Positions 20,512 to 27,221 of a stretch of 64,000 bases of DNA are shown piece after piece. Under the pieces are notes generated by a model, which did not search any database, was not told the origin of the DNA, and worked only from the letters and a program-made list of their open reading frames with translations. Source of the DNA: Bifidobacterium sp. ESL0704 (GTDB lineage: Bacteria; Actinomycetota; Actinomycetes; Actinomycetales; Bifidobacteriaceae). The position numbers were made by a program, and so were the translations under genes. Position 1 is the first letter of the stretch, and each line of letters starts with the position of its first letter. Where the stretch lies: positions 2,232,001-2,296,000 of the forward strand of contig NZ_CP113929.1 of the NCBI RefSeq assembly GCF_029392075.1, written 5' to 3'.

Positions 20512-20558
20512 CTACTATATTTAGCGGTATCGCATTGCCCAATCACTAGATGTAGTGT
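20512..20558 (+). promoter_or_regulatory. Tandem NrdR boxes upstream of nrdF
   Basis: Box 1 at 20512-20527 (CTACTATATTTAGCGG) and box 2 at 20543-20558 (TCACTAGATGTAGTGT) match the known NrdR consensus ACACTATATATAGTGT at about 11 and 13 of 16 positions. They are exactly 31 bp apart, the three-turn spacing typical of NrdR box pairs. They imply repression of nrdF by NrdR when dATP is plentiful. Confidence 0.75.
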
Positions 20559-20702
20559 TGCCGGTGTTGGAAACCAATCGCTCTATGTCAATGGAATACG
20601 GGAGAATGAAACGTCTCAAACGTATTCGCGAGCAGCTTGCCCAAGCGCAACGCGGGTACCGGAAAACTCGAATACAGAACGGCATAAAAGTAAGGAACAC
20701 TC

Positions 20703-21755
20703 ATGACAAACGAGGTCAAACTCGCCGATGACAAGATGATGGCCGATTCGCTGACACCTCCGCAGTGGTCGACGGCCTTCGCCAAGGGCGCGGATCCGAA
20801 CTCCATGCGCATCCGCCCGGTCAACTGGAACAACATCCAGGACGACAAGGACCTCGAGGTGTGGAACCGCCTCATTGCCAACTTCTGGCTGCCCGAAAAG
20901 GTGCCGCTCTCGAACGACATCCCGACCTGGCGCTCCATGACCGAGCACGAACGCACCACCACGGTCCGCGTCTTCGCCGGCCTCACCACGCTCGACACCG
21001 AACAGGCCACCGTCGGCGAACTCGTCCAGATCCCCGACGCGCTGACCGAGCACGAGCAGGCCATCTACACCAACATCGCCTTCATGCAGTCGGTGCACGC
21101 CCGCTCCTACTCCTCCATCTTCTCCACGCTGTGCTCCTCCGAGCAGATCGACGAAGCCTACCGCTGGGCCGTGGGCAACGACCTCGTGCAGGAGCGCGTG
21201 CGCATCGTCATGGAGCAGTACCAGTCCGAGGACCCGCTGAAGCGCAAGGTCGCGGCGGTTATGCTCTCCTCGCTGCTGCTGTACGCGGGCTTCTACCTGC
21301 CGCTCTACTTCTCCAGCCGCGCCAAGCTGATGAACACCGCCGACATGATCCGCCTGATCCTGCGCGACAAGGCCATCCACGGCTACTATTCCGGCTACAA
21401 GTACCAGCGCCACCTCGAGCACCGCACCGCGGCCGACCAGGAAATGCTCAAGAAGTACACCGACGATCTCTTGAACCAGCTTTACGACCTCGAGGTCAAG
21501 TACTCCGACCAGGTCTACGAAGGCTTCGATTTCATCGACGACGTGCAGGCATTCGTTCGCTACAACGCCAACAAGACGCTGATGAACCTCGGTTACGAGG
21601 CCAAGTTCAGCGCCGCCGAGACCAAGGTAAGCCCCGAGATCATCGCCGCGCTCTCGCCGTCCGCCGACGAGAACCACGACTTCTTCTCCGGCTCCGGCTC
21701 CTCCTACGTCATCGGCAACGCCGAGGCCACTGACGATGAGGACTGGGACTTCTAA
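20703..21755 (+). CDS. nrdF: Ribonucleotide reductase radical subunit NrdF, class Ie (QSK variant, metal-free type)
   Basis: 350 residues, full-length class Ib-like R2. The three glutamates that bind the dinuclear metal site in ordinary NrdF are all replaced: FMQSVHARSY has Q129 (normally E), VMLSSLLLYAGFY has S189 (normally E), and ILRDKAIHGYY has K223 (normally E). D98, H132 and H226 and the radical tyrosine position Y136 remain. This Q-S-K set defines the class Ie subunits known to use a metal-free DOPA radical made with NrdI and superoxide. It would supply the radical to NrdE for making deoxyribonucleotides. The ribosome site AAGGAAC precedes the ATG. No nrdE, nrdH or nrdI is adjacent. 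Two NrdR boxes lie upstream. Confidence 0.95.
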   Translation: MTNEVKLADDKMMADSLTPPQWSTAFAKGADPNSMRIRPVNWNNIQDDKDLEVWNRLIANFWLPEKVPLSNDIPTWRSMTEHERTTTVRVFAGLTTLDTEQATVGELVQIPDALTEHEQAIYTNIAFMQSVHARSYSSIFSTLCSSEQIDEAYRWAVGNDLVQERVRIVMEQYQSEDPLKRKVAAVMLSSLLLYAGFYLPLYFSSRAKLMNTADMIRLILRDKAIHGYYSGYKYQRHLEHRTAADQEMLKKYTDDLLNQLYDLEVKYSDQVYEGFDFIDDVQAFVRYNANKTLMNLGYEAKFSAAETKVSPEIIAALSPSADENHDFFSGSGSSYVIGNAEATDDEDWDF

Positions 21756-22351: not shown

Positions 22352-23794
22352 ATGAAAGTACACATGTTGAAGACGTCAAAGGCAACCAAGGCAACCAGGC
22401 GAGGCACGATACCGGCCGCATTCGCGGCAGTGGTGCTGATGCTGGCTTCGCTGCTGCTGCCACAGACCGCGACGTTCGCCACCTCGGCCTCGCCGCAAGA
22501 CGACACATGCGTCATCGGCGCCAGCACTATCGCCGAATGCTTCCCCGATTCCCTGCTGGCCTCTTCAGTGGCAAACGCGGCCAGCGATGGCGGGCATAAC
22601 GTCACCACCTCCAGCCCTTTCACAGCAGACATCGTCAAGCGCGTCGTCAACCTCGACATCGCCTTCAACGGCTTGACGAGCCTCTCGGGAATCGAGCATC
22701 TCACCAATCTGACCTCGCTGTTCATACCCTCAAGCCAGCTTCGGGACCTGACCCCTCTCAAGGGCTTGCACAAACTCGCCAATCTCACCATCGACAACAG
22801 CCCCAACATCCGCCTTGCCGACATTGCCGGCCTCTACCCCGTGGAAACGCTCAGCCTTTCCAACGACAATATCGACAGCGACTCGAGGGCGCTGCCGAAT
22901 CTTTCCCAATTATTCAATCTCTATAGCTTGGATCTCAGCAACAACGCCATCAGCGACATCACCCCGCTGAGTGGGCTCAGGCAGTTGATGACGCTGAATA
23001 TGGCCGATAACGACCTCAGCGACATCAGCGTGCTGAGCGGCCTCAAGCAGCTGTACCGTATGAATCTTTCCAACGACGATGCTGTAGCAAACGGTCACGG
23101 CAACGCCATCAGCGACCTCACCCCGCTGGGTGACCTCCCTCTGTTAGTGGAGTTCAGCATCATCAACCAGCGCGCCGCTACTACCAGCAACACTGCCGGC
23201 ACCGTGAGCCTGCCGACGGCCAAATCGACGGACGGCACTTTCATCGCGCCGCAGGCCGGCAGCATACAGCCCAATACCGGCTCTTACAATCCGTCTACCG
23301 GGCAGGTGACATGGGCCGGGCTGAAGCTCGGAGACAAAGCGTCGTTCTCGGTGTTCGCCAAGGATTTCCCTAACTGCCCCAAGGGCTGCACGGTCTACAG
23401 CGGCACGATTTCCACGACCATCACCCAGCCTACCGAAACCGAAAGCCTGGCCCCCAACCTGAACAAAAAGGCCATTGACCCGGTTCCCGACCCCGAGAAG
23501 CCGAAAGAGCCGCACCGTCCTTCCCACAAGCCGACCACGCCGACGGACCCTACACCGGATCCGGATCCAGATCCCGACCCCACTCCAGTGCCCACGGATA
23601 ATTCTTCGCAATCAGACACGTCGAAGCAATCTCGAAAAAGGAACGGCCGGACCCGTGCAGCGTCCGAGCAGCAACGTCCACGCGGCTCGATATCGAAGAC
23701 CGGGGCCGCAGTAGCGACGGTGGCCATAGCAGCGATTGCGCTTGCAGGTCTCGGCATTGCCGCCTATACCTTGGCCCGACGCCACAGACATTGA
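22352..23794 (+). CDS. Internalin-like LRR surface protein without B repeats
   Basis: 480 residues. Signal peptide (about 1-45; AAVVLMLASLLLPQTATFA), then the two-cysteine cap [16 protein letters not shown] (about 52-67), about seven 22-residue LRRs (e.g. LYSLDLSNNAISDITPLSG), and a C-cap domain with the TGSYNPSTGQVTWAGLKLGD pattern shared with its paralogues. A Pro/Asp-rich wall-spanning linker (DPTPDPDPDPDPTPVP) leads to ISKTG, a hydrophobic helix and the tail ARRHRH. Likely covalently attached to the wall and involved in adhesion. It is the shortest family member here and has no B repeats. Confidence 0.88.
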   Translation: MKVHMLKTSKATKATRRGTIPAAFAAVVLMLASLLLPQTATFATSASPQDDTCVIGASTIAECFPDSLLASSVANAASDGGHNVTTSSPFTADIVKRVVNLDIAFNGLTSLSGIEHLTNLTSLFIPSSQLRDLTPLKGLHKLANLTIDNSPNIRLADIAGLYPVETLSLSNDNIDSDSRALPNLSQLFNLYSLDLSNNAISDITPLSGLRQLMTLNMADNDLSDISVLSGLKQLYRMNLSNDDAVANGHGNAISDLTPLGDLPLLVEFSIINQRAATTSNTAGTVSLPTAKSTDGTFIAPQAGSIQPNTGSYNPSTGQVTWAGLKLGDKASFSVFAKDFPNCPKGCTVYSGTISTTITQPTETESLAPNLNKKAIDPVPDPEKPKEPHRPSHKPTTPTDPTPDPDPDPDPTPVPTDNSSQSDTSKQSRKRNGRTRAASEQQRPRGSISKTGAAVATVAIAAIALAGLGIAAYTLARRHRH

Positions 23795-24147: not shown

Positions 24148-25185
24148 TCAACGCCCGGCCCTAATGCCGTGCGAACCTTGCTTTACCTGGCGTGCACGAT
24201 GATTTTTGACGATGGCAGCGGACGCCAGCCCCATGACCGTCAGAGCCAATCCCGTCGCAACCCCGGCAATGGTGCCCATAACGTGCTTGCCGAAATCATC
24301 CGGATAGGAGGTATCCAACGAATAATCCCTCACTCCGGAAACTAGCAAACGGTGATCGTTGACCCCGTAGGGGGTGCAGGTCATCAGCGTGACCCTGTCG
24401 ACGCCGGGCTCGATTTTGAGCTTGCTTTCGTCATCTGGCTTGATGACATTGATGCGGTCGACCCTATAGCCCATCTTTCTGCCGGCTACGTTGAGGTAAA
24501 ACACGTCTTTTTTGTTCATCTCGTCAAGTCGGGTGAACATCATCGCCGTGGTCATGCCAGTGTGCGCGGCAATGACGGCATGGGTCGAGGGACCGCCCAC
24601 GGGCAGGGAGCTACCATACAGATGCCCTGCACCGATATCAAGAGTGCTCATTGCAGTGCCGTGATAGATACGTAAATCAACGTGGATTTTGGGGACAATG
24701 ACCGTGCCCATGATGCCGCTATCATAATGCAACAGACTCATATAACGCTTGTCGCCCATTGCGACCGAGTCTTCTTTGGCCTGCTTGCGCGCCACCGCCG
24801 GATCGCTGGAAGTATCCGGATCAAGGGAACCCATCACCGGCTGACCGTAGGTGGCAAGGTCACGATTGTATTGTTCGGCCTGCGCCAAAATCTCGCGGCC
24901 ATGCGGGTCTTTGGCCATGTGCCGAGAAAGCTCATCACTGGCTTTCGCCTGTTGAAATGACGTCACGCCTCGCGCGGCGAACGGATAGCCGACAATGACG
25001 ACACCGACCAGCAGCAACAGCACCGCGATCGTTTTCATGCCAGCAAGCAGCCAATCCACCGATTTCGAACCGTTGCCTTGCGGCTGGGCGTTCCCCCGAA
25101 TCAACGAGGAAAAAGACGAGGCCATGCCTCCTCGATCGACATTGCCAACCCTACCATTCAGTTGGTTATCGACCTTCGGACGCAT
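24148..25185 (-). CDS. srtC: Class C sortase (pilus polymerase)
   Basis: 345 residues. N-terminal membrane helix (about 52-70), catalytic domain with H208 (AAHTG), C270 (TLMTCTPYG) and R279 (DHRLLVSG), and a C-terminal membrane helix (about 303-323), the usual topology of class C sortases. A DP-containing segment before the core (LDPDTSSDP, about 121-129) may be the lid. It links pilin subunits through their LPxTG motif. It is the last gene of the pilus operon, 44 bp after the pilin. The start is not certain: GGAG lies about 13 bp upstream, and MASS at residue 21 is an alternative. Confidence 0.92.
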   Translation of the reverse strand: MRPKVDNQLNGRVGNVDRGGMASSFSSLIRGNAQPQGNGSKSVDWLLAGMKTIAVLLLLVGVVIVGYPFAARGVTSFQQAKASDELSRHMAKDPHGREILAQAEQYNRDLATYGQPVMGSLDPDTSSDPAVARKQAKEDSVAMGDKRYMSLLHYDSGIMGTVIVPKIHVDLRIYHGTAMSTLDIGAGHLYGSSLPVGGPSTHAVIAAHTGMTTAMMFTRLDEMNKKDVFYLNVAGRKMGYRVDRINVIKPDDESKLKIEPGVDRVTLMTCTPYGVNDHRLLVSGVRDYSLDTSYPDDFGKHVMGTIAGVATGLALTVMGLASAAIVKNHRARQVKQGSHGIRAGR

Positions 25186-25229
25186 GGCCTCATATCTCCA
25201 ATTAATTCATTAATTGTGGTCAGTACACG

Positions 25230-27221
25230 TTACCGTGCCATCGTACCTTGCGCACGCGAACGCTGGACATGACGGATGCCGAAGTACAGCGCCAACGCGA
25301 TAGCGATCAGCAAAGCACCCAACACCACGCGCATCACGATGCCCACCATACCAGTTGCCGGCAGCTCGGTAAGTGACTTGATATTCAGCACGTGAAGCTT
25401 ATTGGAATTATTATCTACAGCGCCAGGCGTGGTCACCAATCCGTAGTCATCGCCAGTCACTGTATAGGTGTACTTAGCCTGATCAGGGTGATTGTCCTTA
25501 TCAGGAACCGTGTGTTTCACCTCAACAGTGAACTTGAAACCAGCAGGAATCATGTATCCTTTAGGAGTTTCCCTCTCGACAAAGGTATATTTCCCATCGG
25601 CAAGACCATTAATCACGAATGATTTGCCGTCAGAAGTAACGATATTATCAACTCCTGTTTTGCCACCAAGCAATGGCTCATGATAATAATCCGTTGTACC
25701 GTTGCTTTTGCCAGTGTCTTTAACGAATAACAACGCGTTGCCCTGTTCTGTGTCGCCTTTATAAACTTGGAACTTGACACCGCCCAGCTGCGCACCGATA
25801 TCATTCGATATCTTGTCCACTTTAATGGAACCCGAGAAGAAATAAACATGGTTACGAGGAGTGCGAACCCAGTTGCAGCAGTCTCCAGTTCCATACATAC
25901 TGTAAACCGTGTTTTTATTGCCATTTCCATCCAGTTCGGCATCTTCATTGAGCACTACTGAGTAATCGATTGTGACTGTCTTCCCGCCTGCTGACCAATC
26001 CTTCTGAGCGATTTTGTTGTTGATATATTTCGACAAATCAAAGACGAGCGTTGCCTGCTTTATTGGATCGCCAGTAAAATCCGTCGAAGTCGGGCTAACA
26101 TCATCACCACAAATCTTTGGCTCATTAGGCTCGGTGTCTCCCTGTTGTGCAGAACAGCTAGCAGATTTGTTGGAATTAGAAGCCTGGCTGGCAGAGCTGG
26201 CCGAGGCGGCAGGGCTAGCGGGGGTGGAGGAGGTGGGGGAGGAAGGTTTATATGCCTTCAACAAGTAGTCCGCACCTGGACCTTCCTGAAGAGGGACGCC
26301 TCCGACTTTCACAGTGAACTTAGAAGCGTCAGGATAATAAGTCAAACTAGGAGACAGAATATCCACAATCCAGAAATGGAAAGAGTCGGGAGCACCTGTA
26401 TAACCTGTATAAATAGGTATCTCACTACTAATAGTGTAATGGACATAATCGCCAATATTGTAGCTTGTTTGTTCCACTTTCTTATCGGTCTTAATGTCGG
26501 GAGCCTTGACATTAATCTCCGATGAACCGGAACCCGGAATTCCCTTCACCTCAGTACTAACAAGCATAGGAATAGACTCCGGCTTCTTCTCTACATTTGA
26601 AGTATCTACTCCATCAGCGGTAGTAGTTACATCGAGGATTAGATAAATACCGTTGGGAATATTGAACGTTACATCTGTGGCCTGGTCGCCTCCAACCACT
26701 TGAATGGTCTTTGGATCTGTATCTAACTCACTCTTTATCACCTTGTCAAGAGTTACAGCATTCTGGCCATCCGGCGGAACCTTCGTATTGAGAAGTTCCG
26801 TCACGAAATCACGCACTTCTCCGGTATATTGCCCTGTCAGTTCCTTACCTTTGTCTGAAGCCAGCCCCCACTGCGTGGCAAGCCACGCCATAGGATCAGC
26901 CTCATTCACGGTTTTGCCCGGAGCGGCTGTTGCCTTCGCTGCCGAGACAATAGCCGCTTTGAGATCAGCATTATCGCGAATGGTAGAAACGCCATATTTG
27001 CCCTCCGCGCTATTCACCCCGACATAGTCAGCGAGTTTCAAAGCCCTAAACTTGTGACCACCAATCGCCTCTTTTTTGCCCTTAAGTTTGAGAGCCACAA
27101 TCGGCTGAGGCCCTGGCAGTTCAGTCGCCGAAGCGCTCACGGCACCGGCGGCCATGGTGGCGACGCCGACCACGCATGCAATCGCAGAAGCGAACAATCG
27201 CCTCATCTTTGTTTTTTTCAT
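25230..27221 (-). CDS. fimA: Major pilin (FimA-like shaft subunit)
   Basis: 663 residues. Signal peptide (RLFASAIACVVGVATMAAGA), several Ig-like CnaB-type domains expected to carry isopeptide bonds, the E-box YTFVERETPKGY near the C-terminus, then LPATG, a membrane helix and a basic tail (RHVQRSRAQ). A typical pilin-motif YPK lysine is not obvious. A Ser/Ala-rich insert (about 26130-26270; ASPAASASSASQASNSNKSA) with nearby cysteines interrupts one domain. The central part (25400-26900) is visibly more AT-rich than the flanks. Ribosome site AAAGGGA. Polymerised by the adjacent sortase into the pilus shaft. Confidence 0.9.
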   Translation of the reverse strand: MKKTKMRRLFASAIACVVGVATMAAGAVSASATELPGPQPIVALKLKGKKEAIGGHKFRALKLADYVGVNSAEGKYGVSTIRDNADLKAAIVSAAKATAAPGKTVNEADPMAWLATQWGLASDKGKELTGQYTGEVRDFVTELLNTKVPPDGQNAVTLDKVIKSELDTDPKTIQVVGGDQATDVTFNIPNGIYLILDVTTTADGVDTSNVEKKPESIPMLVSTEVKGIPGSGSSEINVKAPDIKTDKKVEQTSYNIGDYVHYTISSEIPIYTGYTGAPDSFHFWIVDILSPSLTYYPDASKFTVKVGGVPLQEGPGADYLLKAYKPSSPTSSTPASPAASASSASQASNSNKSASCSAQQGDTEPNEPKICGDDVSPTSTDFTGDPIKQATLVFDLSKYINNKIAQKDWSAGGKTVTIDYSVVLNEDAELDGNGNKNTVYSMYGTGDCCNWVRTPRNHVYFFSGSIKVDKISNDIGAQLGGVKFQVYKGDTEQGNALLFVKDTGKSNGTTDYYHEPLLGGKTGVDNIVTSDGKSFVINGLADGKYTFVERETPKGYMIPAGFKFTVEVKHTVPDKDNHPDQAKYTYTVTGDDYGLVTTPGAVDNNSNKLHVLNIKSLTELPATGMVGIVMRVVLGALLIAIALALYFGIRHVQRSRAQGTMAR

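Follow-up and report, generated by a model that had tools for sequence, protein, structure and literature searches.

The nrdF gene at this locus of Bifidobacterium sp. ESL0704 encodes a small subunit (R2) of ribonucleotide reductase (RNR) for which an earlier note had claimed glutamine, serine and lysine (QSK) in place of the three metal-binding glutamates of class Ib NrdF, and this raises the question of whether the protein belongs to the metal-free class Ie and, if so, whether it serves under iron and manganese starvation, as the note suggested, or as the regular aerobic R2 of the organism. The window, i.e. the whole stretch of DNA that was analysed, comprises 64,000 nucleotides (positions 2,232,001-2,296,000) of a genome that consists of one contig of 2,415,815 bases, and its relevant features are listed in Table 1 along with those of the locus carrying the second R2 gene (L005). 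The reading favoured here, to which a probability of roughly 88% is assigned, is that the gene encodes a class Ie R2 of the QSK subtype that would operate without metal through a DOPA radical made by NrdI, that it is probably the sole aerobic R2, that it has an NrdR-type box in common with nrdHIE, and that it is accompanied by a degenerate paralogue.

Table 1. Positions of the features discussed, in the window or, where prefixed, in locus L005
Feature	Position	Strand	Remarks
nrdF, class Ie, QSK subtype	20703..21755	+	350 aa; residue reading, alignments, family models, tree
Residues of the window NrdF			W62, D98, Q129, H132, Y136, S189, D222, K223, H226, tail Y335, C-terminal DDEDWDF
AAGGAA, probable ribosome-binding site	20692..20697	+	5 bases upstream of the nrdF ATG; inferred from sequence
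Palindrome CACTAGATGTAGTG (14 bp), probable NrdR box	20544..20557	.	place, symmetry, presence of nrdR
TACTATATTTAG, possible second, weaker box	20513..20524	.	centre 32 bp from the first; read from alignment
Leucine-rich-repeat (LRR) surface protein	22352-23794	+	membrane segment at C-terminus
Sortase and pilin-like surface protein	24148-27221	-	SpaA and pilin backbone domains
Degenerate R2 gene	L005:2442-3665	-	407 aa; downstream of nrdE behind five genes
Five-gene block between nrdE and degenerate R2	L005:3918-9129		amidohydrolase, SDR, enolase family, HpaI-type aldolase, IclR regulator

Translation of the ORF confirmed that D98, Q129, H132, Y136, S189, K223 and H226 occupy the positions given in the earlier note, and Q129, S189 and K223 align with the three glutamate ligand columns of class Ib both in HMMER comparisons with solved structures and in alignments of 24 and 192 rows. 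Ten columns were inspected in the 192-row alignment (W62, D98, 129, 132, 136, 189, D222, 223, 226 and Y335); these read W-D-Q-H-Y-S-D-K-H-Y in 34 sequences (the window protein plus 33 relatives from Bifidobacterium) as against W-D-E-H-Y-E-D-E-H-Y in 135 rows, while the QSK protein of genome G085 agrees in all columns except the tail, owing to a frame-shifted C-terminus. Additionally, the D-Q-H-Y-S-K-H set and the tail tyrosine are present in all of the best 120 of 7996 scored homologues of the window protein, whose own cluster in the protein database is P0121. Since the same set is kept across relatives and best homologues, the substitutions are not attributable to chance.

Pfam places the protein among the R2 small subunits and NCBIfam assigns it to class 1b NrdF at 435.6 bits (cut-off 355); as a QSK protein thereby passes the class 1b cut-off, family models alone cannot tell the classes apart. 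At the level of residues, the three glutamate ligands of class Ib are missing and Q, S and K stand where the VPK subtype has V, P and K, while the features of the QSK subtype are all present, namely the Q, S and K columns together with the retained aspartate, two histidines, radical tyrosine, tail tyrosine and NrdE-binding C-terminus. The 29 QSK rows of a tree built from 70 selected R2 rows form one clade (100/100). The class Ie assignment proposed previously is thus supported by homology, through the same substitutions, the QSK clade and 75% identity to the protein of Gardnerella vaginalis, and by the presence of NrdI, NrdE and NrdH in the genome; by these measures the ORF is a member of the already known QSK subtype of class Ie R2.

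The best solved relatives of the window NrdF are indeed structures 8RAG and 8RAH of the Gardnerella vaginalis class Ie R2 (578 bits by HMMER, including an extended N-terminus), followed at 451 bits by a structure with glutamate at all three columns. Window numbering equals that of Gardnerella minus 14 (Gardnerella Q143, S203, K237, Y150, D112, H146 and H240), such that Y136 is the counterpart of Y150. In the accessible part of its published description (PMC11846895), the Gardnerella R2e is reported to contain Fe and Mn at trace level only, to acquire DOPA at Y150 only upon co-expression with NrdI, to require both DOPA and reduced NrdI for CDP reduction, to have a lysine ammonium group and a water in the two metal places, and to display lower activity than the VPK enzyme. 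From this close homology, the window R2 may be expected to be metal-free, to carry DOPA and to depend on NrdI.

It was also considered that the protein might be a class Ib NrdF that still holds Mn or Fe, with other residues replacing the three glutamates, as its score above the NCBIfam cut-off and its retention of D98, H132 and H226 would allow. However, no glutamate takes over the three places in the alignments, nor does any aspartate shift onto these columns, and lysine and water lie at the two metal places in the 75% identical Gardnerella structure; this explanation was rejected on the basis of the alignments and is hardly credible. A separate candidate for an extant intermediate linking class Ib to class Ie, the NrdF of genome G103 with E-S-E at the ligand columns, was rejected as a likely local frame scramble: this class Ib nrdF (L081:3113-4105) contains a stretch that is out of frame relative to its relatives across the second glutamate column, and the stretch around the serine aligns with no relative's protein.

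The class Ie protein of the window resembles that of Gardnerella vaginalis (8RAG, 8RAH; PMC11846895) in the Q-S-K set, the retained aspartate, histidines and tyrosine and the extended N-terminus, and the Gardnerella genome likewise encodes NrdI, NrdH and NrdE with a class III RNR as companion. Unlike in Gardnerella, where the gene order is nrdHIEF, the window nrdF is solitary and distant from nrdHIE, and the genome also contains a degenerate R2. The VPK subtype (Mesoplasma florum, 6GP2/8BT3; Aerococcus urinae, 6EBO) has its metal-site glutamates replaced as well, with lysine in the third place, but carries valine and proline rather than glutamine and serine, forms a separate clade and has another gene order; its structures match the window NrdF at 408 and 397 bits in HMMER as against the 578 for Gardnerella. 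Class Ib NrdF (Corynebacterium ammoniagenes, 1KGN; M. tuberculosis NrdF2, 8J4X) shares the fold and the partners NrdI, NrdE and NrdH, and differs in its three glutamate ligands and its Mn or Fe centre.

To place the gene in its cellular context, the remainder of the genome was searched, as the earlier note had advised, for nrdI, nrdE and a second, canonical nrdF. The first two, along with nrdH, adjoin one another at 202-206 kb (approximately 0.37 Mb from the window nrdF if the contig is circular), while the search for the third was negative, the genome containing only two R2 homologues of which the other is degenerate. One copy each of NrdE (the sole PF02867 protein), NrdI, NrdR and class III NrdD is encoded, and the PF02867 search, finding NrdE only, gave no match to a class II RNR in the genome; the presence of a class II enzyme or of a further nrdF of canonical type was thus rejected by the R2 and PF02867 searches and by alignment. 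Judged by its residues, the QSK protein is the only R2 in the genome with an intact radical path, and for this reason it is probably the sole source of dNTPs under aerobic conditions, beside the anaerobic NrdD. As no canonical second nrdF accompanies it, the QSK protein probably serves not as a spare for metal starvation beside a metal-dependent R2 but as the one aerobic R2 that works. In the proposed mechanism, NrdI, encoded elsewhere beside NrdH and NrdE, would provide an oxidant derived from O2, Y136 would be converted to DOPA, the DOPA radical would travel via W62 and the tail residue Y335 to NrdE, and NrdE would reduce ribonucleotides with an R2 that contains no metal.

The distribution of these genes was surveyed in 112 Bifidobacterium genomes, 96 of which contain an R2. 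QSK is present in 35 (the sequences of all 35 were inspected), lying next to nrdE in 16 and apart from it in 19; in this context, apart signifies a distance of about 11 kb from nrdH in G002 and the absence of nrdE from the stretch fetched in the other 18. Twelve of these 19 genomes harbour a degenerate R2, three a class Ib nrdF (G002, G075 and G095) and four no second R2 (G012, G013, G085 and G088). Across all 112 genomes the degenerate R2 occurs only in those 12, always with QSK (12/12) and never with a class Ib match (0/12). The group stems mainly from bees and bumblebees. The QSK nrdF of G075 (L053) has in the tree an origin separate from that of other Bifidobacterium QSK genes, and a full class Ib operon is present elsewhere in that genome. 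In G085 (L174, L052), the matches to nrdE and nrdI are broken into pieces that lie in different frames, and the reading frame of the QSK tail is shifted; either the class I RNR is decaying or the assembly contains sequencing errors.

A palindrome upstream of the window nrdF (Table 1) is probably an NrdR box common to this gene and nrdHIE; this putative role was deduced from its place, its symmetry and the presence of an nrdR gene in the genome. NrdR boxes are typically paired, about three helical turns apart. A search of the genome for CACTAKATVTAGTG allowing one mismatch gave two loci, 205,688 (104 bp before nrdH) and 2,252,544 (before the window nrdF). As a reversed control pattern has as many matches in the genome as the box pattern, and the pattern was not found before nrdD in this genome, the count weakens the case for the box, which leans on position and on conservation in relatives: the palindrome precedes 17 of the 19 QSK genes that lie apart from nrdE (the exceptions being G013 and G095) and nrdH in all 19 loci that contain its upstream region. 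It precedes none of the 12 degenerate genes. For B. longum, the available portion of one report describes putative NrdR sites before nrdH and nrdD and rapid induction of nrdHIEF by oxygen (PMC6244367). In the strain studied here, the NrdR-type box would probably link the window nrdF to nrdHIE.

These data also bear on the notion that the QSK gene is inactive and that dNTPs are instead obtained from class III NrdD or by salvage. NrdD is encoded in the genome, nrdE and the QSK tail are damaged in the relative G085, and 15 of the 112 Bifidobacterium genomes have no PF02867 match whatever. Set against this, nrdHIE is complete and has the palindrome in common with the QSK nrdF, the Gardnerella homologue is active, and the QSK genes are under purifying selection (median NG86 dN/dS of 0.067 for 55 pairs from 11 genomes), so that inactivity of the gene is very unlikely. 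The QSK R2 is thus retained as the probable working aerobic subunit.

The second R2 homologue of the genome also departs from class Ib, its aspartate ligand being replaced by glutamate, the third glutamate by isoleucine and the second histidine by serine, with glutamate retained at the first and second glutamate columns. Across the family, the columns of D98, 129, 132, 136, 189, 223 and 226 hold Glu; Glu, Gly or Ser; His; Tyr; Glu or Gln; Ile or Leu; and Ser, respectively (18/18 full rows of the 192-row alignment), and the W62 and D222 columns are likewise retained. The tail tyrosine is absent from all 11 open copies and from the C-terminal piece of the twelfth, while one paper states, in the part available, that this residue (Y356 of E. 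coli) is essential and conserved in every characterised class I RNR (PMC8463856). Accordingly, the protein lacks both the tail tyrosine of class I R2 proteins and the full set of six class Ib ligands (Asp, three Glu and two His), and it scores 200.4 bits, below the NCBIfam class 1b cut-off of 355. From the lost metal site and tail tyrosine, the paralogue is presumed to be inactive. Its C-terminus is of the class Ib type (e.g. EETSDDDWDF), such that the NrdE-binding tail is kept, and an AlphaFold2 model displays an R2 fold (mean pLDDT 77.9; 224 of 407 residues at 90 or above) closest to class Ib NrdF structures. Long variable inserts are apparent in the alignments of the family. In a database search that scored only the 7997 candidates with most words in common, P0001-P0020 were members of the family among the matches listed (P0020 being a 236-aa piece), with identity falling from 54% at P0019 to 33% at P0021 among the best 120 of 614 matches; copy P0010 is named from B. 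asteroides, and the family is labelled RNR beta subunit in databases.

The degenerate gene lies directly behind nrdE in four of the 12 genomes (L037, L039, L040 and L045) and is separated from it by approximately 1 to 17 kb of other DNA in the remaining eight. The five genes that intervene in this genome (Table 1) are found at the same place in L038, L043 and L044, and in L042 and L046 just the SDR gene is present there, indicating a changing insertion place. Where nrdE and the degenerate gene adjoin, a strong inverted repeat lies between them (e.g. GTGCCCGCCA...TGGCGGGCAC in L037), which is possibly a terminator parting the degenerate gene from nrdHIE. In G012 and G088, nrdE is directly followed by the gene that elsewhere comes after the degenerate R2.

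Regarding its origin, the 14 degenerate rows form one clade (100/100) with a very long stem in the tree of 70 R2 rows. In the free tree they group with the class Ib sequences of Bifidobacterium (87/92, not starred); this placement, together with the position behind nrdHIE, favours, short of proof, an origin in the former class Ib gene. A union of the degenerate R2 with Bifidobacterium QSK (G075 excluded) was rejected (p 0.012), whereas one with the QSK group as a whole was not (4.55 log units, p 0.32), which weakens the case for class Ib descent. In a NrdE tree of 24 rows, G088, which has no second R2, is sister to G083 (95/90), whose degenerate gene contains one TGA, as if loss of the gene were under way.

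To assess selection on the degenerate gene, NG86 comparisons were made for the 11 genomes (55 pairs) with G083 excluded. The median dN/dS was 0.193 (0.094-0.425) as against the 0.067 of QSK; values for nrdE and nrdI were 0.078 and 0.089 (28 pairs from the eight genomes with both genes in the stretch), and median pS was higher for the degenerate gene (0.505) than for QSK (0.272). By region, dN/dS was 0.18 in the N-core, 0.25 in the loops, 0.14 in the C-core, 0.65 in the linker and 0.09 in the last 15 residues, and amino-acid sites change at about seven times the rate seen in QSK (median ratio 6.9). These values indicate that the degenerate R2 is not drifting freely; by this measure it evolves fast yet under purifying selection, the NrdE-binding tail being best kept.

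It is quite possible, at a little short of even odds, that the degenerate R2 is functional and modulates the enzyme by binding NrdE, either on its own or paired with the QSK R2 in a heterodimer. Such a role would agree with the open state of 11 of the 12 copies, the low overall dN/dS with its minimum in the tail and maximum in the linker, the confidently predicted R2 fold and the presence of QSK alongside all 12 copies, but less well with the in-frame TGA in one of the 12, the lack of a preceding palindrome, the sevenfold faster amino-acid change and the absence of the gene from four of the 16 genomes that lack class Ib and have QSK away from nrdE (one of the four, G085, having a damaged class I system). 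That the gene is instead a dying relic without present function, left behind after a QSK takeover, is rather unlikely: loss of the ligands and the tail tyrosine, fast change, the one stop, the empty slot in four genomes and the long variable inserts would suit a relic, but dN/dS is clearly below 1 in four hand-picked pairs (bootstrap intervals of 0.116-0.279, 0.139-0.258, 0.134-0.274 and 0.325-0.584, i.e. upper bounds of 0.26-0.58) and the NrdE-binding tail is nearly unchanged.

Yeast Rnr4 is an R2 homologue that has lost its metal ligands and shares the cell with an intact R2. The degenerate R2 is similar in that it has lost ligands and coexists with an intact R2 (all 12 genomes also carry QSK), but it occurs in bacteria, probably descends from class Ib and is missing from some close relatives, and its pairing with the intact R2 is hypothetical. 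We tentatively propose, while regarding it as somewhat doubtful, that this Bifidobacterium clade swapped its metal-dependent aerobic RNR for a metal-free one and that the old R2 became a radical-dead, NrdE-binding modulator, either an independently arisen counterpart of Rnr4 or a brake. The open-licence literature yielded no description of an R2 pseudoenzyme or of an NrdF paralogue without metal ligands, no bacterial counterpart of Rnr4 and, regarding the RNR of B. asteroides, work on B. longum only; the family is thus a candidate bacterial R2 pseudoenzyme that is undescribed as far as this literature shows.

While the QSK subtype itself is known, the genomic setting of a solitary QSK nrdF, a remote nrdHIE and a degenerate second R2 is new. 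In the part of one paper that was available, class Ie is discussed chiefly as an escape of pathogens from metal limitation by the host (PMC8463856); the genome studied here, which lies outside that setting, seems to retain no metal-loading R2, and consequently genomes credited with a further class I R2 may lack any functional one. Furthermore, several states coexist within one genus, namely QSK away from nrdE accompanied by class Ib (three genomes), by the degenerate R2 (12) or by neither (four), and QSK behind nrdE (16), which renders the change from a metal-dependent to a metal-free enzyme testable. In the window itself, the solitary nrdF is flanked by a glycoside hydrolase 32 gene on one side and by the LRR, sortase and pilin region (Table 1) on the other.
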